Part shown: piece by piece, positions 8,905-63,666 of the stretch
How the letters are laid out: each line of letters opens with the position of its first letter
Position numbering within the stretch: the first letter of the stretch is position 1
DNA from: Lachnospiraceae bacterium
Lineage (GTDB): Bacteria > Bacillota > Clostridia > Lachnospirales > Lachnospiraceae
Direction of reading: 5' to 3'
DNA length: 64,000 nt
Assembly: GCA_022483465.1 (NCBI GenBank)
Contig: JAKVNF010000001.1
Span: 1,488,001-1,552,000 of the forward strand
Program-made: the position numbers and the translations under genes
The notes under the pieces: generated by a model
Seen by the model: only the letters and a program-made list of their open reading frames with translations
Told to the model about the DNA's origin: nothing
Database searches by the model: none

Positions 8905-9939
8905 ATGACAGCAGCCACACAAAATCAGGCAGGGCAGGAGGCACCTCTGCTCGAGGTGAAGGACCTGCAGATCTCCTTCTTCAAGGACAAGCGGGAAATC
9001 CCGGCGATCCGGGGCATCTCCTACACCCTTCGCCGCGGCGAGGTTCTGGGCATCGTCGGCGAGTCCGGATCGGGAAAGTCCGTCTCCTCCCGTGCCATCA
9101 TGCGCCTCGTGGCGCCGGGTGAGAAGATCACCGGCGGTGAGATTCTCTTTGACGGCCGGGATGTCCTGAAGATGACGGACGCCGAGACCGCAAAGATGCG
9201 GGGCAGCGACATCTCCATGATCTTCCAGGACCCGATGACCAGCCTGGATCCCCTGTTTCCGATCGGCTATCAGATCGAGGAGGTGCTGAAGAAGCACACC
9301 TCCATGGACAAGGCGGCCCGCAGGGCCCGCATGCTCGAGCTTCTCACGCTGGTCGGCATCAACCAGCCCGAGCGGCGGCTTTCCCAATATCCCCACGAGT
9401 TCTCCGGCGGCATGCGCCAGAGAGTCATGATCGCCATGGCCCTCGCCTGCAGCCCGAAGCTCCTCATCGCCGATGAGCCCACCACGGCCCTCGACGTCAC
9501 CATTCAGGCCCAGATCATCGACCTGCTCAAGTCCCTGAAGGACCGCCTGAACATGGCGATCATCTTCATCACCCACGACATGGGTGTCGTGGCCGACATC
9601 TGCGACCGCATCGCCGTCATGTACGCCGGAGAGATCGTGGAGATGGGGAGCAAGCGGGAGATCTTCTATTCCCATCAGCATCCCTATACCGAGGGCCTTC
9701 TCGCCTCCGTCCCCAAGGTGGACGGCGCGGAGAAGGTTCCGCTCCAGCCCATCGAGGGCAATCCCCCGGACATGACCCGCGTGGGGAAGGAGTGCGCATT
9801 CGCACGCCGCTGTCCCTATGCGATGCGGATCTGCGCCAAGCAGACCCCTCCGCCGGTTGTCGGCTTTGAGGAGGATCACTACGCCCGGTGCTGGCGCTGC
9901 TGCGAGCGCTGCCTGCAGGAAGAGAAGGGAGGCGCCTGA
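8905..9939 (+). CDS. Peptide ABC transporter ATP-binding protein (OppD/DppD type)
   Basis: 344 residues with Walker A GESGSGKS near 53, Q-loop [10 protein letters not shown], signature [15 protein letters not shown] near 170 and Walker [13 protein letters not shown]. The C-terminal extension (about 265-335, [13 protein letters not shown], then [14 protein letters not shown]) is the oligo_HPY tail that marks oligopeptide/dipeptide/nickel importers. It energises the two permeases downstream from the inner face of the membrane. First gene of a five-gene operon, followed after 2 bp by its partner ATPase. Confidence 0.92.
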
Positions 9940-9941
9940 TC

Positions 9942-10916
9942 ATGGAAGAGACAAACAGCAAGACGCCGCTTCTTGCGGTGGAACATCTGAAGAAGTACTT
10001 TGAGATCCGCCAGGGCTTTTCCAAGAAGCTCTTTGTCCACGCGGTGGACGACGTCTCCTTCTCGATCCAGAAGGGCGAGACCCTGGGACTGGTGGGAGAG
10101 TCGGGCTGCGGCAAGACCACCCTGGGCAGGACGATCCTGCGCCTGACCGAGCCCACGGACGGTAAGATCCTCTACAACGGCACCTGCATCAACGACGTGG
10201 ACATGCGGCCCTACCGCCAGAAGATGCAGATCGTCTTCCAGGACCCCTATGCCTCCCTGGACCCCCGGCTCACCGTCTCCGCCATCATCGGCGAGGCGCT
10301 GGACATCAACGGGAAGGCAGGATCCAAGCAGGAGCGGCAGGAGAAGATCCTGCACCTCATGAAGCTCGTGGGCCTCTCCGAGAACTTCTACAACCGCTAT
10401 CCCCATGAGTTCTCCGGCGGCCAGCGCCAGAGAATCGGCATCGCGAGAGCCCTTGCCGTGGATCCGGAGTTTCTCGTCTGCGACGAGCCGGTCTCCGCGC
10501 TGGACGTCTCGATTCAGGCCCAGGTCATCAACATGCTCGAGGAGCTCCAGAAGTCCCGGCACCTGACCTACCTGTTCATCGCCCACGACCTGTCCGTCGT
10601 GCGCCACATCTCCGACCGGGTCGCTGTGCTGTACTTAGGGCACCTGGTGGAGCTTGCGCCCTGCGATGCGCTGTATCGGAATCCGATCCATCCCTACACG
10701 GACATGCTCCTGTCCGCGGTGCCGATCCCGGACCCGGACGAGAGCGAAAAGAGAAAGCGGAAGATCCTCCAGGGGGAGATTCCCTCGCCGATCAATCCGC
10801 CCTCCGGCTGCCCGTTCCGGACCCGGTGTCCCTATGCGGATGACGAGTGCGCTGCGTCCTTCCCGGAGCTGACGGACCGGGGAGGCGGCCACTTCGCCGC
10901 CTGCCACAAGCGCTGA
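9942..10916 (+). CDS. Peptide ABC transporter ATP-binding protein (OppF/DppF type)
   Basis: 324 residues from the ATG at 9942, which has a GAAGGGAGG ribosome site. Walker A is GESGCGKTT, the Q-loop [11 protein letters not shown], the signature [15 protein letters not shown] and Walker [13 protein letters not shown]. The C-terminal oligo_HPY tail carries [14 protein letters not shown]. It forms the ATPase heterodimer with the preceding protein. Both ATPase sites look intact, unlike the exporter pair upstream. Confidence 0.92.
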
Positions 10917-51247: not shown

Positions 51248-51826
51248 ATGCCCGTCAACCGGCTGATGCCCCTGCTCCAGGTCCATTTCCCCGATAGGAC
51301 CATCATGACAAAGACCATCGCCGACGAGACCGCACTCCAAAAGGGCCTGCATGACGAGCCTCTGGACCTTGCGGTCCTGACCGCGCCGCCCGAAGACCCC
51401 GCGATCTTCCGCCAGCGCTACCTTCGGGAAAAGCTCTTTCTCTGCGTCACCCCGGACCATCCGCTGGCCAAAAAATCCTCTGTCACCCTGTAGGACCTCG
51501 CCTCCTGCCGCATCCTGATCAACCGCCACATCGGCTTCTGGCTGCAGCGCTGCCTGGCCCTGCTCCCCGCCCAGAACCTCTTGATCCAGGAGAGCATGGA
51601 CGCCATGGACGAGCTTGCCGACTCCTCCACAATCGCGATGTTCCACTCCGATGCGATGATGCAGGACGGCTTTCTCTCCCAGGGCCGCATCGCCATCCCG
51701 ATCGCGGACCCCTCCATGGAGGCGGTGTACTATGTCGCCTGCATGGCACAAAAAAAAGACCGTTTCCGGTCTTTTTTCAGCGCGGTCCGCGCAGAGAGCC
51801 TGCGCGCCGGCTCAGCCGAGCGCTGA
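51248..51826 (+). pseudogene. LysR family regulator, effector domain only, with stop
   Basis: The reading frame covers the effector domain (LQKGLHDEPLDLAVLTAPPE, REKLFLCVTPDHPLAK) but not the helix-turn-helix, which is gone. A TAG at 51491-51493 splits KKSSVTL from DLASCRILIN in the same frame; CAG to TAG is the simplest change. A bidirectional terminator at 51750-51777 lies inside the last part of the frame. It once ran divergently from the MATE gene. Confidence 0.75.
51750..51777. terminator. Bidirectional terminator
   Basis: GACCG TTTC CGGTC with A-run before and TTTTTT after (51772-51777). It ends the kinase gene unit on the minus strand and the LysR remnant on the plus strand. Confidence 0.8.
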
Positions 51827-52735
51827 GCGCTCCTTCTGTTTTCTCTGAAAGTGGTAAAAGGCACCGGCCATCCCGGCGTCATTTCCCTGCATGGCAAACC
51901 GAAGCTTGGTCTTGTCGGCAAGGTAGGGGATCAGGTACCGATCCAGCGACTGGCGGAGTTTGGGTCCGAGCAGCTCTTTCTGGGCCATGATGCCGCCGCC
52001 GAGCACCACCACCTCCGGGTTCAGCACGTAGCACAGGTTGGCAATGCCCTCGCCGAGGACATCGCACATCTCGTCGATGGCCCGCAGGCAGTCCAGATCC
52101 TGCTGCTTTGCTGCCGCAAAGATCCGGATCCCATCCCAGGATCCCGCGGGTTCGTGCTTTGCCGCCGCCACCTTCTCCGAGAGGATCGAGGCGGCGCCGA
52201 GCTTTTCAAAACAGCTCCCCCGCATGTGCAGATACCCGACTTCGCACCCCGCGCTGCAGAAGCCGTGCAGGACCTTTCCGTCGATCACCGCACAGCCGCC
52301 GATCCCGGTGCCGACGGTCAGGCACAGCATGCTCTGGGCGCCCTGCCCGGCCCCCGCCAGGTATTCCGAGAGCCCCGCGCAGTTGACGTCGTTCTCCACC
52401 TCGCAGGGAAGGCCGAAGGCCTGTTCCACCGCCTCCTTGTAGCACACCCCCTCGTAGTCCGGAATCGTGGGGCCGCTGTGGACGATGGTCCCGCTCTCCG
52501 GGTCCACCATTCCGGCGGTGGAGATGGCAGCGCCGAGGATCTGGTCTCTCCCCTCCTTCTCGAGGAAGGAGCCGATGATGCGAAGCGCCTTGTCCCGCAG
52601 CTGCCCGCCGCCGAGGTTCCCCTCGGAGGGGAGCTGCCCCCGGCTCGTGAGCCGGGGCCGCCCGTCGGGAAGAGGCTCTGCCAGCGCGTACTTGATCGCG
52701 GTGCCGCCGATGTCCAGTACAATACAGCTCTTCAC
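51812..52735 (-). CDS. nanK: ROK family sugar kinase, probable N-acetylmannosamine kinase
   Basis: 307 residues. The ATP loop is VLDIGGTAIKYALAE and GTGIGGCAVIDGKVL the second phosphate motif. ENDVNCAGLSEYLAGAGQG carries the catalytic Asp region, and EVGYLHMRGSCFEK replaces the usual ROK CxCGxxGCxE zinc motif. Last gene of the nan operon, 13 bp after nanA, so ManNAc phosphorylation (before NanE) is the inferred role. Glucokinase activity is the alternative. Confidence 0.75.
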   Translation of the reverse strand: MKSCIVLDIGGTAIKYALAEPLPDGRPRLTSRGQLPSEGNLGGGQLRDKALRIIGSFLEKEGRDQILGAAISTAGMVDPESGTIVHSGPTIPDYEGVCYKEAVEQAFGLPCEVENDVNCAGLSEYLAGAGQGAQSMLCLTVGTGIGGCAVIDGKVLHGFCSAGCEVGYLHMRGSCFEKLGAASILSEKVAAAKHEPAGSWDGIRIFAAAKQQDLDCLRAIDEMCDVLGEGIANLCYVLNPEVVVLGGGIMAQKELLGPKLRQSLDRYLIPYLADKTKLRFAMQGNDAGMAGAFYHFQRKQKERSALG

Positions 52736-52748
52736 GCCGCGTCCTCCG

Positions 52749-53666
52749 TCAAAGGAACTTCTCCCGGGCCCTCCGGATCTTGTCGGCTGCAGCCTTCACG
52801 GTGTCCATGTCCTGATCAGAGATCGGTGTCAGCGGTGCCCGCACGGAGCCGATGTCGATGCCCTCGTTGATCCGCAGGATCTCCTTGATCACCGCATACA
52901 TGTTTGCGTGGGTGCTGCACATCGTGTAGATGATGTCATCCGCCGCATACTGCATGGCCCGTGCCCGGTCCAGATCCCGGTTCTTCAAGGCCTCGTCCAT
53001 CGCAAGGTACAGATCCGGCATCACGCCGTAGGTGCCGCCGATTGCGCCCTCTGCGCCGATCAGCCGCCCGGAGATGAACTGCTCGTCGGGGCCGTTGAAG
53101 ATGATGTAGTCGTCCCCCGCATCCATCTTGAACACCTGGATGTCCTGCACCGGCATGGAGGAGTTCTTGACGCCGATCACCCGGGGATTCTTGCGCATCT
53201 CTGCAAACATTCCTCTGGTCAGGGCGACCCCCGCCAGCTGGGGGATGTTGTAGATCACAAAGTCCGTGTTCGGCGCCGCAGCGGAGATGTCATTCCAGTA
53301 CTGGGCGATGCCGTACTCCGGCAGGTGGAAGTAGATCGGGGGAATCGAGGCGATGGCGTCCACGCCGCACTTCTCGGCATGGGCTGCCAGGATCTTGGAG
53401 TCCCGGGTGTTGTTGCAGGCGACGTGGCAGATCACCGTCAGCTTCCCCTTTGCCACCCGCATGACGTGCTCCAGGATGGTCATGCGCTCCTGCGGGTCCA
53501 GATAGATGCACTCGCCGGAGGAGCCGTTGACGTAGATGCCCTTGACCCCCTTGTCCACAAAGTACTGGGTCAGCGCCTCCACCCGCTCCGGGCTGACGTC
53601 CCCGTTGTCGTCATAGCAGGCGTAGAACGCCGGCAGAATTCCCTTGTATTTCTCCAAATTTCTCAT
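52749..53666 (-). CDS. nanA: N-acetylneuraminate lyase
   Basis: 305 residues of the DHDPS/NAL aldolase family. GILPAFYACYDDNGDVSPER, the GSSGECIYLDPQERM segment, then FVIYNIPQLAGVALT (Tyr of the active site) and RVIGVKNSSMPVQDI with the Schiff-base Lys in VKNSS. It splits sialic acid into ManNAc and pyruvate. AAGGAG lies 11 bp before the ATG at 53666. Context with nanE and nanK makes the lyase call firm. Confidence 0.9.
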   Translation of the reverse strand: MRNLEKYKGILPAFYACYDDNGDVSPERVEALTQYFVDKGVKGIYVNGSSGECIYLDPQERMTILEHVMRVAKGKLTVICHVACNNTRDSKILAAHAEKCGVDAIASIPPIYFHLPEYGIAQYWNDISAAAPNTDFVIYNIPQLAGVALTRGMFAEMRKNPRVIGVKNSSMPVQDIQVFKMDAGDDYIIFNGPDEQFISGRLIGAEGAIGGTYGVMPDLYLAMDEALKNRDLDRARAMQYAADDIIYTMCSTHANMYAVIKEILRINEGIDIGSVRAPLTPISDQDMDTVKAAADKIRRAREKFL

Positions 53667-53710
53667 GATTGATATGCTCCTTCTGTTTTCGTCGCCCGGC
53701 GGCACCGATC

Positions 53711-54655
53711 TCAGCCCTTGACTGCACCCATGGCAATGCCCTGGGTGAAGTACTTCTGGAAGATCAGGAATACCGTCAGAATCGGCACCGCCGCCAGGGC
53801 AGCGCCTGCCATGATCAGGCCGAAGTCCGTCGCATTCTCTGCCTGGAGCTTGGCAATGCCCAGGGAGATCGTGAGGTTGCTCGTGGAGGACAGCATGATC
53901 AACTGCATGAAGTAGTCGTTCCAGCTGCTGATGAAGGTGAAGATCGCCAGGGCACCGATCCCGGGCTTGACCATCGGGATCACCACGTCCGTAAAGGTCT
54001 TCCACTCTCCGGCGCCGTCAATTCGTGCGGCCTCGAGCATCTCCGTGGGGACGCTCTCCGAGAACTGCTTCATCAGGAAGACGCCGAAGGGCCAGCCCAC
54101 TGTGGGGAAGATCACCGCCCAGATCGTATTGTACAGCTTCATCGCAGACATCTGCCGGATCAGCGGGATCAGAATGACCTGCTTGGGCAGTGCCATCGCC
54201 GCGACGATCAGCGAGAACAGCAGTGCCTGACCGCGAAAGCGCTTCTTGGCCAGCGCATAGCCCGCCATGGTCGCCGTGGCACAGGTGAGCACCATGGCGG
54301 CGACCGCCATGAACACCGTGTTCACCATCCAGCGGATGGCCGCCGGGACCTCCGGTCCCGCGGTGATCACGATGGCATTTCCCGTCCCGGAGAAGGAGGA
54401 GCTGAAGGGCAGGTGGATCTCCCAGAGCGGCGCCTGCTGCCGGGAAAAGAGCTTCTGGAAGTTGGTCAGGGTCCACTGGGTCGGCCACCAGACCGGCGTC
54501 ACCGAGTTGACTTCCTTTGCGGTCTTGAACGCGCCTGTCACGATCCAGTAGAGCGGGAACAGAAACAGGAAGGCCAGAATCAGCAGCACGACAAGGCACA
54601 CAACCCGGTAGGCCGACATATGGTGTACATCATGTCTCTTGTTGTCCTTTTCCAT
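53711..54655 (-). CDS. Sialic-acid-type ABC transporter permease (MalG type)
   Basis: 314 residues, six helices, with EAA loop EMLEAARIDGAGEWKTFTDV and end YFTQGIAMGAVKG. The loop between helices 1 and 2 is long (EVNSVTPVWWPTQWTLTNFQ). It lies 44 bp before nanA on the same strand. It belongs to the importer for the nan operon; the ligand is inferred from neighbours. Confidence 0.88.
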   Translation of the reverse strand: MEKDNKRHDVHHMSAYRVVCLVVLLILAFLFLFPLYWIVTGAFKTAKEVNSVTPVWWPTQWTLTNFQKLFSRQQAPLWEIHLPFSSSFSGTGNAIVITAGPEVPAAIRWMVNTVFMAVAAMVLTCATATMAGYALAKKRFRGQALLFSLIVAAMALPKQVILIPLIRQMSAMKLYNTIWAVIFPTVGWPFGVFLMKQFSESVPTEMLEAARIDGAGEWKTFTDVVIPMVKPGIGALAIFTFISSWNDYFMQLIMLSSTSNLTISLGIAKLQAENATDFGLIMAGAALAAVPILTVFLIFQKYFTQGIAMGAVKG

Positions 54656-54661
54656 TTGATC

Positions 54662-55567
54662 TCACCTTTCCCTGGCAAACCGAAACTGCACCGCAGAGAG
54701 GATGGCGATGAAGATCGCAAGCATCACACCCATGGCATTGGCGTATCCGTACCGATAGAGCTTGAACGTCGTGTAGTAGATGTAGTACATCACCGTGTCG
54801 GTGGAGTGGTTGGGTCCGCCGGAAGTCAACAGCTGTATCAGGGCGAAGCACTGGAAGCTGTTGATCGTGGTGATGACCAGGATGTAGAGGGTCGTGGGCA
54901 TGATGTTGGGCCACTTGATCTTCCAGAACACCTGCAGATCAGTGGCGCCGTCCACCTGTGCCGCCTCGATCAGGGAGGCGTCCACGTTTCCGAGGGCGGA
55001 GACGTAGAGGACGATCGGCTGGCCCACGGAGGTGGTCAGGAGGATCAGGATGATGCAGCCGAGTGCGTATTTCTCATCGCCGAGCCAGTTGATGCGCTGC
55101 TGGATCAGGCCCAGGCCGGTGCCCACGTAGTTGAAGATGCCGTAGTAGTTGTTGAACATCCACTTCCACACCACCGTGACGGCCACCGAACCGGTGATCA
55201 CCGGGAGGTAGAACACGATGCGGAAGAAGGAGAGGAGCTTGCCCGGCATCTGGTAGATCGCGCTGGAGACCCACAGGGAAAAGACGCAGGTCACCGGCAC
55301 CGACACCACGACGATGACAAAGGTGTTGCGCAGGGCTCGGAGGAAGATCGGATCCTTCCAGAGCTCGACGTAGTTGGCGAACCCGATAAACGTGTCCGCG
55401 GTGTCCTTCCCCATCGTGGAGTCAAAGAAACTGGTGGCCACGCACAGGATCATGGGGACCACAACGAATCCGATGAAGAAGAACAGGGACGGGAGGAGGA
55501 AGAGATAGGCGGACCTGGTCTCCCTTCTCACGAGGACTTTACTTCTTTGAGGCTGAGCCGTCTGCAT
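54662..55567 (-). CDS. Sialic-acid-type ABC transporter permease (MalF type)
   Basis: 301 residues from the ATG at 55567 behind AAAGGAG. SAYLFLLPSLFFFIGFVVVP and EAA loop LIEAAQVDGATDLQVFWKIK identify the MalF-type partner. It is 6 bp from the MalG-type gene. A 35-base palindrome lies between it and the binding-protein gene. Confidence 0.88.
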   Translation of the reverse strand: MQTAQPQRSKVLVRRETRSAYLFLLPSLFFFIGFVVVPMILCVATSFFDSTMGKDTADTFIGFANYVELWKDPIFLRALRNTFVIVVVSVPVTCVFSLWVSSAIYQMPGKLLSFFRIVFYLPVITGSVAVTVVWKWMFNNYYGIFNYVGTGLGLIQQRINWLGDEKYALGCIILILLTTSVGQPIVLYVSALGNVDASLIEAAQVDGATDLQVFWKIKWPNIMPTTLYILVITTINSFQCFALIQLLTSGGPNHSTDTVMYYIYYTTFKLYRYGYANAMGVMLAIFIAILSAVQFRFARER

Positions 55568-55599
55568 TTCGGCGCTCTCCTTTCTTTCATCCCCTCTGC

Positions 55600-55634
55600 A
55601 CGACGTGCACCCCGCAGTGCGGGGTGCACGTCGT
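55600..55634 (-). other. 35-nt near-perfect palindrome after the binding-protein gene
   Basis: Two exact 17-bp arms (starting ACGACGTGCACCCC) flank a single central G at 55617. There is no T tract on either strand, so it is not a normal terminator. It probably protects the 3' end of the binding-protein message. Confidence 0.75.
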
Positions 55635-55663
55635 CTCACACTTTTTGCCAAACCCGAATTGAC

Positions 55664-57088
55664 TTAGGAGGTTGCGGCAGCAAGTGCTGCATTGGCAGTG
55701 GTATCAAAGTTTGCGGTTTCGGTCGGGATGTCGCTGCCCGTTCCGATGGACTGAAGCATGTTCCACCATGCAGTTCTGGCCTCTGCCCAGCCGGGGGTTA
55801 CCTGATAGTAGTCGCCCATCTTCGGCATGAAGTAGTCGGTGAACATCTGCATGGTATCTGCCGTGTCAGTTCCCACGTAGACGTTGCCCATGTTCTGGTG
55901 AACCGGGAAGAAGCCGGCTGCCAGGACAGCCTTGCTGGCCTCGGTCTCGTCGTTGCACATGAAGTCGATAAAGGTCTTGGCTGCAGCGATCTTGTTCTCA
56001 TCGCCGTTGTCGAAGATACCAAAGCCCCAGATGCCGCCGCAGAGCTTCGCGTCGCCGGAGGAAGTCGGGAAGGACATCGGAAGGATGGTGTCGCCGTCAT
56101 TGGTCAGGCCTGCATCGTTGTTGTCGGTGTTGTTCTGCTGAGAGGCATTCCAGCACAGGCTCATCGCCAGGACGCCCTGGCGGAAGAGGTTGATCTCGTC
56201 GCCGCCCACCAGAGAGGCGTCAAAGTTGATGCCGTCCTGGGCGTAGAGATCTGCCAGCGCCTTGTTGTTCTCATCGGAGGACACGGTGTAAGCCGTGTGA
56301 TCTGCATTGGTGAAGGTGCCGCCGTACATGTTGTTGACAAGAGCACGGGTGCCCTGGTCGCCTCCCTGGCCTGCGCAGTAGACGGCTGCCACATCGGTCT
56401 GGCCGCTGTCATAGACGGCCTGTACTGCCTTCAGGAAGTCCTCGGTGGAATTCCAGGTGTGGGTCTCCTCATCCAGGTACTGGAGGGCATCTGCCTTCTC
56501 AAACATGTTCCGGTTGATGGCCATGCAGTGGGCCACCATGCAGAGCGGATACTCATAGACCTTGCCGTCCGACGCCGTGCAGGCGGAGCGGATCGAGTCG
56601 TACAGATCCGACGCGGAATCCTCCGACATCAGATCGGAGAGATCCACCATGAGTCCTTTGGCGCCCCAGTTGGCAACCAGTCTCTCCGGTCCCTCCAGGA
56701 CCAGATCCGGTGCCTGTCCGCCCTCGATGGCGGTGTTGACCTGATCGTCGCCGTTGGTGTAGTCGAGGTACTCCACGGTCACCGAGATGCCGGGATACTT
56801 TGCGTTGAAGTCCGAGATCAGGGAATCCACGGTTGCGGAATCTCCCCAGCTTCCGACGGGATAGGTCCAGAGAGTCAGGGATGCGGAGAGATTGCTTCCC
56901 TCTGCGGTGCTCTCGGTGGTCTCTGCGGCCTGCGTGTCAGCGGCCGGTGCAGCGGTCTGCTCCTGCGCCGCGGTGTCGTCTGCGGCGGATGTGGAGGCAG
57001 CCGTGCTGCTTCCCGAAGAGCTCCCGCAGGCAGCCAGGGAAGCTGCCATAACAGACGCCATTCCCAGTGCGACAAGTTTCTTTTTCAT
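55664..57088 (-). CDS. Sialic-acid-type ABC transporter substrate-binding lipoprotein
   Basis: 474 residues of solute-binding family 1. The signal ends LAACGSSSG, followed by a long Thr/Ala/Glu linker. SLTLWTYPVGSWGDSATVDS and GISVTVEYLDYTNGDDQ open the sugar lobe, and CWNASQQNNTDNNDAGLTN and CGGIWGFGIFDNGDENK follow. Its position between nanE and the nan permeases makes sialic acid or a sialoside the likely ligand. Confidence 0.88.
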   Translation of the reverse strand: MKKKLVALGMASVMAASLAACGSSSGSSTAASTSAADDTAAQEQTAAPAADTQAAETTESTAEGSNLSASLTLWTYPVGSWGDSATVDSLISDFNAKYPGISVTVEYLDYTNGDDQVNTAIEGGQAPDLVLEGPERLVANWGAKGLMVDLSDLMSEDSASDLYDSIRSACTASDGKVYEYPLCMVAHCMAINRNMFEKADALQYLDEETHTWNSTEDFLKAVQAVYDSGQTDVAAVYCAGQGGDQGTRALVNNMYGGTFTNADHTAYTVSSDENNKALADLYAQDGINFDASLVGGDEINLFRQGVLAMSLCWNASQQNNTDNNDAGLTNDGDTILPMSFPTSSGDAKLCGGIWGFGIFDNGDENKIAAAKTFIDFMCNDETEASKAVLAAGFFPVHQNMGNVYVGTDTADTMQMFTDYFMPKMGDYYQVTPGWAEARTAWWNMLQSIGTGSDIPTETANFDTTANAALAAATS

Positions 57089-57136
57089 GTTTTCCTCCTT
57101 CGATCTTGCAATCTGCAGGTTTCCCCTTTTCCTTTG

Positions 57137-57847
57137 CTAAAAGCCTGCTTCCTTCAGCGCATCTGTAAACCGCTTGGTGATGACCTGGGGTCTCGTGATG
57201 ATGGATCCCACCACCGTGGAAAAGACGCCCAGCTGGGTCACCCGCACCAGCTTCTGCGGCGTGTCGATGTTTCCCTCTGCAATCACCCGGTGCTTTGCCT
57301 TCTCCAGGATCTTTCGGATGATCAGAAAATCGTCTGCCTCGATGTGGTCCCCCTTGCTCTCGGGGGTGTAGCCCACCATGGTGGTGCCGACAATGTCAAA
57401 GCCCAGCTCGTCCGCGTACAGCGCCTCCTCCACCGTGGAGCAGTCCGCCATCAGGGGCTGATCCGGGCAGCGCCTGCGCACTTCCTCGTAGAACTCCTTC
57501 AGCGTCTTCCCGCCCGGCCGGAGCCGGTCCGTTGCGTCCAGAGCGATGATCTCCGGTTTCACCTCCAGCAGCTCCTCGATCTCCTTCATGGTGGGGGTAA
57601 TGTAGATGGAACTGTCCGGATAGTCCCGCTTCACGATGCCGATGATCGGCAGATCCACGTTTTTCTGGATCTCGGCGATGTCCTCCTTCGTGTTGGCCCG
57701 GATGCCCTTTGCCCCGCTCTGGGCCGCCGCCAGGGCGAACCGCCCCATGATGAAGGACGAGTGCATCGGCTCATTCGGCAGTGCCTGACAGGAGACAATC
57801 AGCTGCCCCTTCAGGCTGTCAACTTTTTTCTGGGTTGCAGTGTCCAT
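57137..57847 (-). CDS. nanE: N-acetylmannosamine-6-phosphate 2-epimerase
   Basis: 236 residues of the NanE TIM barrel from the ATG at 57847 (GAGGAGGGACG). LIVSCQALPNEPMHSSFIMG, GAKGIRANTKEDIA, DATDRLRPGGKTLKEF (catalytic Asp), MADCSTVEEALYADELGFD and VIAEGNIDTPQK and VVGSIITRPQVIT are in the family order. It converts ManNAc-6-P to GlcNAc-6-P. First gene of the nan unit, downstream of its regulator. Confidence 0.93.
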   Translation of the reverse strand: MDTATQKKVDSLKGQLIVSCQALPNEPMHSSFIMGRFALAAAQSGAKGIRANTKEDIAEIQKNVDLPIIGIVKRDYPDSSIYITPTMKEIEELLEVKPEIIALDATDRLRPGGKTLKEFYEEVRRRCPDQPLMADCSTVEEALYADELGFDIVGTTMVGYTPESKGDHIEADDFLIIRKILEKAKHRVIAEGNIDTPQKLVRVTQLGVFSTVVGSIITRPQVITKRFTDALKEAGF

Positions 57848-57886
57848 TTCACGTCCCTCCTCTGCTGACCTCAAGATACCATATAA

Positions 57887-57899
57887 GAAAATTATTTTC
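57887..57899. promoter_or_regulatory. Possible RpiR-type operator upstream of nanE
   Basis: GAAAATTATTTTC is a nearly perfect dyad about 40 bp before the nanE start, in an AT-rich promoter region (57880-57960). Family operators often contain GAAA and TTTC half sites. A related TTTTCATT lies before the regulator gene near 59037. Confidence 0.45.
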
Positions 57900-58023
57900 A
57901 ATTAAGTCAATCGTAAAAAATTGTTTTCCATTTTTGTGCATAATTACAACAGGCAATTCGGATTACGTCCATGTTTTATTGCATTCTGTTCCCTTTTCGG
58001 ACGAAATCCGCCAAGGTGCAAAG

Positions 58024-58054
58024 AAGCCCGGCACCGCATTCCGGTGCCGGGCTT
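58024..58054 (-). terminator. Terminator of the RpiR gene
   Basis: AAGCCCGGCACCG and CGGTGCCGGGCTT are perfect 13-bp arms around CATTC; the minus strand continues TTCTTTG. It separates the regulator from nanE. Confidence 0.75.
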
Positions 58055-58073
58055 CCATCCTTGTCAAGCCTTG

Positions 58074-58940
58074 TCAGCGATCCTCGTAGCGGTCCACAAT
58101 CGCCGCCGCGGTCTTTTTGTTGTTTGCCTTTGACTCCTCCGGGTTCATCTGGTAGTACAGCTGAAACAGCACCTCCACGATGTAGAGCTGGCTCATCTTG
58201 GCCCCCATGGAGCCGCCCTCCAGGGGTCCCTCCTTGGAGCCGCAGATCAGAACCGTGTCCGCATACTTCGTCAGCGCGGACTTGGGATAGCGGGTGATCA
58301 CGGAGATCCTCGCGCCGCACGCCCTGCCCAGGGCCGCCACCCGCACGTTGTCGGAGGTGGACCCGGAGTAGGAGATGAAGATCAGCATGTCCTGCGGGGT
58401 CAGCATCGAGGCCGCCATGGCCTGCATGTGGGTGTCCACGACATACTGCACCTTCGGCGTGATGTGCAGAAACCGGCCCTGGGCCTCCTCCGCCGTGATC
58501 ATGGAGTTGCCCACCCCCAGGAAGAAGATGCGCTGGGCGGCGGACATCAGCCGCACGGTCTTCTCCACCACCTCCCGGTCCAGCAGCGCGCTGGTCTCGC
58601 GGATGGCGGAGAGGTTGTTGTTGAGGATCTTCTGGAACAGGTTCTCCTCCCGGGCCTCCCCCGTGCCGGCGCCGGTGTCGTGGGCCTCCTGCCTCCCGTC
58701 GTGCAGCGATAGGGACAGCTGCATCTTGAAGTTCTGGTACCCCTTGATCTGGAGCGTGCGGCAGAAGCGGTGCACCGAGGCCTCCGCGACCCCGCAGCCC
58801 TCCGCCAGCTCCGTGATGGACATAAAGGGGACATCCTGTGCGTTCTGCAGCACGTAATCCGCGATCTTCTTCTCCGTCCTGGTGAACTGGTTGTAGTTCA
58901 GCTGAATGCTCAGCAAAAGGTTTCCATTGTCCTGTTCCAT
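58074..58940 (-). CDS. MurR/RpiR family regulator, likely controls nan genes
   Basis: 288 residues from the ATG at 58940. The N-terminal HTH (about 1-75) reads FTRTEKKIADYVLQNAQDVP and CGVAEASVHRFCRTLQIKGY. The SIS sugar-phosphate-binding domain (about 125-260) has GVGNSMITAEEAQG and FISYSGSTSDNV. Such proteins sense a sugar phosphate, and ManNAc-6-P would fit here. The gene is next to nanE, with a terminator between, so it is a separate unit. Confidence 0.9.
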   Translation of the reverse strand: MEQDNGNLLLSIQLNYNQFTRTEKKIADYVLQNAQDVPFMSITELAEGCGVAEASVHRFCRTLQIKGYQNFKMQLSLSLHDGRQEAHDTGAGTGEAREENLFQKILNNNLSAIRETSALLDREVVEKTVRLMSAAQRIFFLGVGNSMITAEEAQGRFLHITPKVQYVVDTHMQAMAASMLTPQDMLIFISYSGSTSDNVRVAALGRACGARISVITRYPKSALTKYADTVLICGSKEGPLEGGSMGAKMSQLYIVEVLFQLYYQMNPEESKANNKKTAAAIVDRYEDR

Positions 58941-59109
58941 CGCACCTGCCTTCCTGCGGTGTCGCATCCCCGGTATGGATTTGCGCTCTGCACTCAATTG
59001 AAAGACATTTTATTTTTTATGATGATTATGGCAAAATTTTCATTCTCATCATAGCTGTTCTGCCGCGCTTTTTCAACGATGGCTTTTGACCTGGTACAAC
59101 ATTATGACC

Positions 59110-61377: not shown

Positions 61378-62042
61378 CAGTCCCGCTGCCTCCCGCCTAC
61401 TTTTATTCTTGTTTCATCGTTCACGCCGTTAAGTATCATCAGCCGCAGACATCGTTCAAGCTGCGTTCTCTGATCCAATGGTTCAGAAACTGCATCTGTT
61501 CCTCGGTATGGAACCAATGCTCGCCACCGGGCATGACGGTCAGATCAGCATGGTGCTGCTTGGCAAATGCCGATACTGTTTCAATCGATGTCAGGTTGTC
61601 ATGCTCACCGTAGAGAATACAGGTGGGGACATTCCAGATGATCGGATGCTGCCGCACATAACAAAGGTAATCCCAAGACAGCGTTTCTCCGAAATTCGTG
61701 GCAATTTCCCGTTTCTCGGCAAGCTCCTGTTCGGTCACATTCGACCATTGCATCATATTGCAAATCAAGTTCTCCATATCCACGATTGGGGAGATGAAAT
61801 ACGCCCGGTCAACCAGTGTTTCATCCAGCGAGGACAGTGCGAAGAAAGCCCCGATGCTGTTGGCAACCAAGGTGAGGTGCTCACACCGGCCTCTCTGCTC
61901 GGTGAAAAATGTGAGAAACTCTTTCTTTGCTTGCCATGGCGTTCGCGAACGGTAATCAAATCCGATTACCTCGTGACTCGGAAAGAGTGTTTTGTAATGC
62001 CCGGCTTCCCCAGCCGAGCCGCCTTTTCCGTGAACATATACT

Positions 62043-62717
62043 AATCAGTACCACCAGCTTTGCTGGTGGTCTGTGTTCGCCCCTCCGGGGCTTACCGGTG
62101 CGTTTCCGCCTAAAGGCGGTCTAGCAAACCGTTCTTACATTACTGGTGGCCGCCTAAAGGCGGCTCCCTTTTTGACTACTTTTCGGGATCTCCTTCCAGT
62201 CGATCCCTTTCGTACTGTTCTGCAATATACTTCTTGATTGTCTCTTCATTGACATTTCCCACCGTTTCGCAATAGTAGCCTCTTGCCCAGAAATGTCTGT
62301 CGTATCTTTGGCGATATTCTGGATGCTTGTCGAAGATCATGAGAGAACTTTTTCCTTTGATGCGGCCAACTACCTTTGCCACACTCATTTTCGGTGGGAT
62401 CGACACATACATATGTACATGATCAGGCAAGGTGGCCGCTTTGATAATCGTGACTCCTTCCATCTTGCAGACCTTCCCTATAATTTCGCCTATTTCCTTC
62501 CGCAGCTCCCCGAACATTACTTTTCGTCTATACTTCGGAATGAACACTATATGATATGTGCAGTTATATCGACTGTGTGCTAAACTCAAATCGTCCATGG
62601 GCGCCTCCGCTGTCTTGAAGTGGTTTGCTAGACCTACTTCATTGTACAGCGGAGGCTGTTTTTTGTTACTCCGCTTGCCGCCACGGGCTTCTGTCACTCC
62701 CCCAGCTCCGCTGGGGG
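62043..62717 (-). mobile_element. IS200/IS605-family element (tnpA only)
   Basis: 675 bp inserted within a hydrolase gene. The left end (read on the minus strand) is a CCCCCAGC/GCTGGGGG hairpin at 62699-62717 flush with the junction, next to TTAAT in the target. The right end has an ACCACCAGC/GCTGGTGGT hairpin (62050-62070). There is no target duplication, as for this family. Inside are two CCGCCTAAAGGCGG hairpins (62106-62119, 62150-62163) and a 12-bp inverted pair GTCTAGCAAACC (62119, 62622). Confidence 0.88.
62176..62598 (-). CDS. tnpA: IS200/IS605 family transposase TnpA
   Basis: 140 residues from the ATG at 62598. The single-strand HUH transposase has its His pair in LPDHVHMYVSIPP and the catalytic Tyr in EETIKKYIAEQYERD. 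It is intact and full length, so the element may still move. No tnpB is present. Confidence 0.92.
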   Translation of the reverse strand: MDDLSLAHSRYNCTYHIVFIPKYRRKVMFGELRKEIGEIIGKVCKMEGVTIIKAATLPDHVHMYVSIPPKMSVAKVVGRIKGKSSLMIFDKHPEYRQRYDRHFWARGYYCETVGNVNEETIKKYIAEQYERDRLEGDPEK

Positions 62718-62767
62718 ATTAAGATCTGTTTCATTAAGTCTTTCATTGTATCCTCGAGAACCCTTTC

Positions 62768-63235
62768 TCAAAACTGCGGTATCTCACCGTCAAAATGCGC
62801 CGCCTTTTCCAGCAATGGCCCTTTCGCTCCCATGGTAAAAGCAATGTCGCTGCTGCGGATAGACAGAAGCCGCATTTCCGGCTTAAGATGCAGAAACACC
62901 ATCATTTCTTCCGTCAGCGTGATCTCGCCGAACGCTGAAATATCTGTCCAACAGTACGAACGCCCCTTATAGGGAAGAAAAGTGCCGTCAGGAACTTCAT
63001 AATGTAAAAGTGACGGCGTTTCGGTCAGAATATGTCCCAGCTTTGACGGCAGGAGCAGTCCCTGCCGTGTCACGCAGAAGCCGCCTGTAATTTTGCTTCC
63101 GGTAAACAGATAGACCTTTCCTTCCGAAGCAATGCGGTATTCGTCCACGGCCTGCGGCGGAAGCTGCACCCGTCCGTCAGAATGAACGTCTGATTCTCCA
63201 AAAGCGAATTTTCCGCCCTTGTTCATTTGCGGCAT
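62768..63235 (-). CDS. Uncharacterised conserved protein
   Basis: 155 residues, no signal or membrane span. MNKGGKFAFGESDVHSDGRV, GSKITGGFCVTRQGLL and RSSDIAFTMGAKGPLLEKAA look like two similar short beta units, rather like AbrB-type or barrel folds. I do not recognise a named family. The alpha/beta hydrolase gene starts 22 bp downstream, so the two were likely one unit. More A/T in its codons than in genes before 61 kb. Confidence 0.65.
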   Translation of the reverse strand: MPQMNKGGKFAFGESDVHSDGRVQLPPQAVDEYRIASEGKVYLFTGSKITGGFCVTRQGLLLPSKLGHILTETPSLLHYEVPDGTFLPYKGRSYCWTDISAFGEITLTEEMMVFLHLKPEMRLLSIRSSDIAFTMGAKGPLLEKAAHFDGEIPQF

Positions 63236-63255
63236 AAGTACACTTCCTTTTCACT

Positions 63256-63666
63256 TCAAAGAATGATTCGTGCGATCTCCATCGTCACGATCTTCAGAAC
63301 TGCACCGCCGGACATCACATAGAACCAAACTTCGCGCATCTTTTGCGTTTTTGCAATCGGCGTGGCAATGGCAGCAATGATGATCAGCAGTGCACCGACG
63401 CAGCCAATGATGGTGGGAATACTGACCAATTGGAACAGACCCGGTGCGCAGCTACCGTCAATGGCATTCTGAATCGTTTTATCTAACCCGTCCCGCGCCG
63501 CTGCGAAGCAGCAGACCACAAGTCCAAAAACAAACAGAAGCACACTTCTGCGTCCCCAATACTGAATCACTGCGCGGTTGAAAACCGACCATCCGATAAA
63601 GCCCAGCAGGGCAAGGATCATCAAGGTTGTCGCCGTAGTGACGGCGTTTCCAAAATAGAGTCTCAT
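63256..63666 (-). CDS. Small multi-span membrane protein
   Basis: 136 residues from the ATG at 63666 (AGAGGTG upstream). Four predicted spans: ATTLMILALLGFIGWSVF, SVLLFVFGLVVCCFAA, IIGCVGALLIIIAAIA and a weaker one at the end. A Cys-containing loop (GSCAPGLFQL) lies between. Family not recognised. It follows the zinc-ribbon gene by 14 bp. Confidence 0.65.
   Translation of the reverse strand: MRLYFGNAVTTATTLMILALLGFIGWSVFNRAVIQYWGRRSVLLFVFGLVVCCFAAARDGLDKTIQNAIDGSCAPGLFQLVSIPTIIGCVGALLIIIAAIATPIAKTQKMREVWFYVMSGGAVLKIVTMEIARIIL

Follow-up and report, generated by a model that had tools for sequence, protein, structure and literature searches.

The window is the whole stretch of DNA analysed, 64,000 nucleotides (G000:C1:1488001-1552000) of a Lachnospiraceae bacterium genome of 4.3 Mb in four contigs. 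Near its end, an insertion sequence splits an alpha/beta-hydrolase-like gene of the minus strand into a 5′ piece, ATGAAAGACTTAAT (62733..62746, placed by junction comparison), and a 3′ piece (61439..62042, placed by its frame and by homologues). The element lies on the same strand, occupies 690 bp (62043..62732) and directly follows a single target pentamer, TTAAT (62733..62737, minus strand). tnpA (62176..62598, minus strand), an open frame of 140 aa, is the sole sizeable plausible gene in these 690 bp, and there is no tnpB. In profile searches its product matches Pfam Y1_Tnp (1.1e-41) and NCBIfam transpos_IS200 (NF033573; 1.3e-44, with 151.5 bits where the cut-off is 55), and it matches solved relatives such as the ISHp608 transposase (1.5e-19); the HVH motif and the late tyrosine were assigned by eye. 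A Y1 transposase of the HUH class places the element in the IS200 group of the IS200/IS605 family, which bears out an earlier note on this DNA that had recognized an IS200-type element inside a hydrolase-like frame. A row of small hairpins (e.g. CCGCCTTTAGGCGG) lies between tnpA and the right end (62043-62175, minus strand), and relatives carry such hairpins too. Elsewhere in the window, 51812-58997 holds what we take to be a sialic-acid-use-like cluster (ROK kinase, lyase, ABC transporter, epimerase, and RpiR regulator).

The ends of the element can be read from its copies in the genome, five full and two interrupted by other insertions. All seven carry GAAACAGATCTTAAT between a TNAAT pentamer (TAAAT in five, TTAAT in one, TGAAT in one) and the base at which the earlier note had begun the element. 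All seven finish on CTGATT (62043..62048 in the window, minus strand), and the bases beyond it are unrelated, the copies lying in unrelated sites. Elements in G018 and G076 have the same first base directly after TTAAT, and in G071 the contig starts at AAT immediately ahead of that base. Since the seven copies and the G018 and G076 elements all begin at this base after TNAAT, the element is delimited as 62043-62732. The left-end hairpin, CCCCCAGC-GGA-GCTGGGGG (62699..62717, minus strand; sequence and DNA fold), has the 15 bases of GAAACAGATCTTAAT outside it, and its outer base is the border drawn in the earlier note. A second hairpin, ACCACCAGC/GCTGGTGGT (62050..62070, minus strand; DNA fold), lies at the right end. 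Insertion 3′ of a fixed pentanucleotide without duplication of the target, here TNAAT in 7/7 copies, and subterminal hairpins at both ends, here folded as DNA, are described as family traits in the available text of one paper (PMC7290912). TnpA matches 38 places in the genome, which include several IS200/IS605-like families besides this one, and its close relatives in viral contigs amount to one locus (L183). An Rfam scan of window positions 61400-63300, with E up to 1, returned no matches.

Some of the other copies have histories of their own. A copy identical to the window's (L004, G000:C1:987932-988606) splits a methionine-synthase-like gene, whose 3′ piece matches Meth_synt_2 at 1.2e-12 and whose 5′ piece falls just under the cut-off. 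Within the copy in L146 (G000:C1:633011-634001) sits a 308-bp sequence that has inverted ends and is accompanied by an 8-bp duplication; by eye, it is found again in L153 and close to the L005 copy, and it may be a small non-autonomous element. The copy in L147 (G000:C3:378252-380733) is interrupted by about 1.8 kb, also with an 8-bp duplication, containing a 508-aa frame (ORF 9154-10680) that looks, by eye, like a transposase.

The leader of tnpA is predicted to form a stem-loop (62603..62656, minus strand; RNA fold z = -4.7 for 62560-62732). Its 11-bp stem (62646-62656 with 62603-62613) would pair away the GGAGG ahead of the start codon, and its apical part reads GGTCTAGCAAACC (62622..62634, minus strand). 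A leader stem-loop over the ribosome-binding site is reported for enteric IS200 in the available text of two papers (PMC12594629, PMC2515195). The apical part is the exact 13-nt reverse complement of a second segment, GGTTTGCTAGACC (62118..62130, minus strand), 45 nt past the tnpA stop. In related elements the letters differ, but complementarity to a segment 3′ of the element's own tnpA is kept: this holds for L154 (GGTATCACAAGC), L117 (GGGTTCGCA), L150 (GCTCAAGCC), L161 (TGCCAACCGC), L179 (ACTGACAATCGC), L192 (AGTCCGCCAAG), and L194 (TTGGTTTCGCC), and a complementary, co-changing pair is also present in L224-L226 and L228. In E. coli IS200C (L228) the uninterrupted pairing spans 10 positions, including two G.U, and a Pseudodesulfovibrio element (TnpA 43% identical) has 17 pairs with three G.U. 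The match in L199 falls at the margin of the leader window, away from the loop, and the named element L227 (40%) shows no convincing match between leader and 3′ region.

Covariation was measured by comparing pairs within one element (own pairs) with pairs drawn across elements (cross pairs). The first set, 85 elements with enough sequence, formed 32 clusters at 80% TnpA identity. The longest perfect complement reached at least 9 in 13/32 own pairs and 89/992 cross pairs (cross pairs reached up to 14), and at least 11 in 5/32 and 12/992, respectively. The 44% cut on TnpA identity to the window's protein and the windows used thereafter, placed about the loop and downstream of tnpA, were set after this first count; with them, own pairs in the 22 clusters at or above the cut scored 10.55 on average and cross pairs 6.96, with scores of at least 9 in 17/22 and 75/462. 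The observed sum was 232, whereas 20,000 partner permutations gave at most 195. Five of the 22 clusters scored below 9 (L148, L116, L197, L211, and L123), and L173, just under the cut at 43.5-44% identity, scored 4. The 10 clusters under 44% gave no pairing signal (own mean 5.8, cross 6.6).

A further set was treated with the same windows: 34 loci yielded 30 usable elements, 19 of which were removed as at least 80% identical to the first set, and 10 clusters resulted. All five clusters at or above 44% reached 9, versus 1/20 cross pairs; two of these five (L224 and L228, the [Eubacterium] eligens element and E. coli IS200C) had been inspected beforehand and three were unseen. Ties with the observed value came from 174 of 20,000 permutations, which is the floor for n = 5. 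Below 44%, 2/5 clusters reached 9, versus 3/20 cross pairs. The leader loop and the segment 3′ of tnpA covary, bound to their positions, and the sense strand presumably pairs with itself.

The reading preferred here, to which about even confidence is attached, is that pairing takes place at the RNA level, between the 3′ segment and the leader loop, in cis within the tnpA mRNA or in trans from other copies, and tunes transposase translation where STnc490/art200 acts in enteric IS200. The excess of own over cross pairs in the 22 clusters, and again in the five further ones, argues for it, as does the position of the segment, which remains near the tnpA stop codon across clusters. Pairing also accompanies the leader hairpin, being found in 23/33 clusters with the hairpin and 1/9 without it (Fisher p = 0.0025), an association confounded by kinship. 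In the cores of representatives scoring at least 9, G.U exceeds A.C by 21 to 8 (p = 0.024, the rows not being independent); with neutral scoring over 55 distinct duplexes the counts are 51 to 38, a weak strand asymmetry. This count and the confounding by kinship tell against the RNA reading, as do the five low-scoring clusters of the 22 and the score of 4 in L173.

The same pair might instead act on single-stranded DNA, joining the left and right ends of one element for TnpA, a possibility that we hold to be rather unlikely. Pairing would involve the same strand that is expected to undergo transposition, the asymmetry is also consistent with G.T wobble, and element-specific letters would keep the ends of different elements apart. 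Against such a role, the distance between the segment and the right-end hairpin varies (L111, L150, and L226), and distant relatives, the 10 clusters below 44%, lack the pairing. To return to RNA pairing, the leader would be bound at the antisense-RNA site by the segment, present either on the mRNA itself (in cis) or on a 3′ fragment derived from other copies (in trans). From Clostridia to E. coli, elements of the IS200 type could then have a second control arm, namely a 3′ segment complementary to the apical loop of the leader and kept by compensatory change, through which the identity of the element and its number of copies would determine transposase output; judged from sequence, this generalization is as open to doubt as to belief. 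No 3′ partner of the IS200 leader is described in the titles and abstract starts among the matches listed; an earlier mention in older key work is possible.

Comparison with known systems helps to place the pair. Like the window's element, E. coli IS200C, of the IS200 group, has one Y1 gene, subterminal hairpins, a left-end target pentamer, and no target duplication, and it shares both the leader stem-loop over the ribosome-binding site and the match between leader loop and 3′ region. It differs in its TnpA, which is 49% identical, and the target TNAAT and end CTGATT are peculiar to the window's element. The Rfam model STnc490, searched on leaders in the tnpA-sense strand, scores above threshold in 1/12 loci (L119) and below it in four (L161, L194, L115, and L192); it has no match in the window's element, unlike IS200C, or in its family (L111), and the one match in the window's own genome is below the cut-off and lies elsewhere. 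ISPpu9 is an IS110-type element. It likewise combines a leader structure with an RNA originating downstream of its transposase gene, but its Ssr9 pairs with the antisense RNA Asr9, and the leader is not given as the partner of Ssr9 in the available text (PMC8450116). The antisense RNA of IS200, STnc490/art200, acts on the same leader hairpin but, as the available accounts have it, is an opposite-strand transcript of the leader itself, whereas the segment here belongs to the sense strand, 3′ of tnpA (PMC2515195, PMC12594629). In icaR mRNA, pairing between 5′ and 3′ UTRs is likewise reported to control translation, but icaR is a host gene and no transposon (PMC3868564).

The corrected ends change the reading of the interrupted gene. 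The earlier note had placed the element at 62043-62717 (675 bp), a border that cuts it at the left-end hairpin and misses the 15 outer bases; its "perfect empty site", CTTAAT joined to AGTATATG, retains these 15 nt. That junction seemed perfect because the element's own CTTAAT before the hairpin resembles the CTTAAT of the flank and because 15 is divisible by three. For the same reason the 633-nt frame reported across it is open, the remnant making exactly five codons; it amounts to 210 aa plus a stop, and the five codons (MKQIL) come from the element. The corrected junction joins ATGAAAGACTTAAT to AGTATATG and gives a frame of 618 nt with its stop, 205 aa, beginning MKDLIVYVHGKGG. The empty site would accordingly read ATGAAAGACTTAATAGTATATG, and an excised allele, 690 bp shorter, would contain TTAATAGTATATG.

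Uninterrupted homologues agree with the corrected junction. L023 (86%) reads ATGAAAAATTTAATAGTATATG and L024 (84%) reads ATGAAAGATTTAATAGTATATG, both like the corrected sequence, and L025 has equal spacing with different letters. The comparison covered 88 frames, from 80 loci (of 309 relatives in the genome collection) and eight places in the genus, one of the 88 being the window's own 3′ piece; KQIL, from the extra residues of the earlier frame, occurs in 0/88. The gene has one place in the genome by both searches and is present in 6/62 genomes of the genus, the window's included. Its product is likely an alpha/beta hydrolase because the putative catalytic residues are kept in homologues (Ser67 in 87/87, Asp153 in 87/87, and His180 in 86/87), although the hydrolase piece scores under the curated Pfam cut-offs. 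In the 3′ piece, no ATG, GTG, or TTG precedes the TTG at 61870, the first possible start, four residues before the putative nucleophile, and function was probably lost after the insertion. As for the neighbourhood, L026 has, immediately upstream of its homologue, a 90% match (79 aa) to one neighbour, a 150-aa gene, and L079 and L027 have one neighbour match each, about 3 kb off. Of the three neighbours tested, no homologue locus has two or more, and no same-locus empty site was found among these loci.

The insertion looks recent, as the earlier note had held: three of the four other full copies are identical to the window's and the fourth has a single base difference, and the broken frame has no further lesion. 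By analogy with the family, the element would have entered 3′ of TNAAT without target duplication, with TnpA bound to its two subterminal hairpins in single-stranded DNA. Where GC skew within the 20-kb surroundings is at least 0.03 (four copies), the tnpA strand is the G-rich strand; of the other copies, one (0.013) is opposite and two are flat. The G-rich tnpA strand fits entry on the lagging-strand template, the presumable route, which is described for the family in available text (PMC6006769). Reversibility, also claimed earlier, follows from the family mechanism of no target duplication and a single-strand circular intermediate, as far as the available texts describe it (PMC7290912, PMC6006769), just as it would for any insertion of the family; precise excision here would restore the 205-codon frame, and with tnpA intact the element is presumably mobile. 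Enteric IS200 is called essentially immobile in the available part of one report (PMC12594629).

What almost certainly lies here is an ordinary, recent, gene-breaking insertion of the IS200 group, 3′ of TTAAT at codons 4-5 of an alpha/beta-hydrolase-like gene, and no dedicated switch. The further suggestion that the site behaves as a reversible on/off switch finds little purchase and is highly improbable: the frame would be restored if the element were excised at its corrected ends, and tnpA is intact, but any insertion of the family should leave a clean empty site, the identical copy in L004 likewise splits a gene, the leader hairpin predicts low transposase output, and no alternative allele was seen in the one genome of the species analysed or in a scan of viral contigs for the corrected junction (20 bases; 0 matches).

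The insertion itself is of little importance. The case corrects the annotation, and it shows how an empty site can seem perfect when an element is taken to start at its hairpin and the remnant left behind has a length divisible by three. If the pair of leader loop and 3′ segment is functional, it would be an overlooked layer of control, or an end-pairing device, in a very widespread transposon family, and it could help to explain the quietness of IS200.
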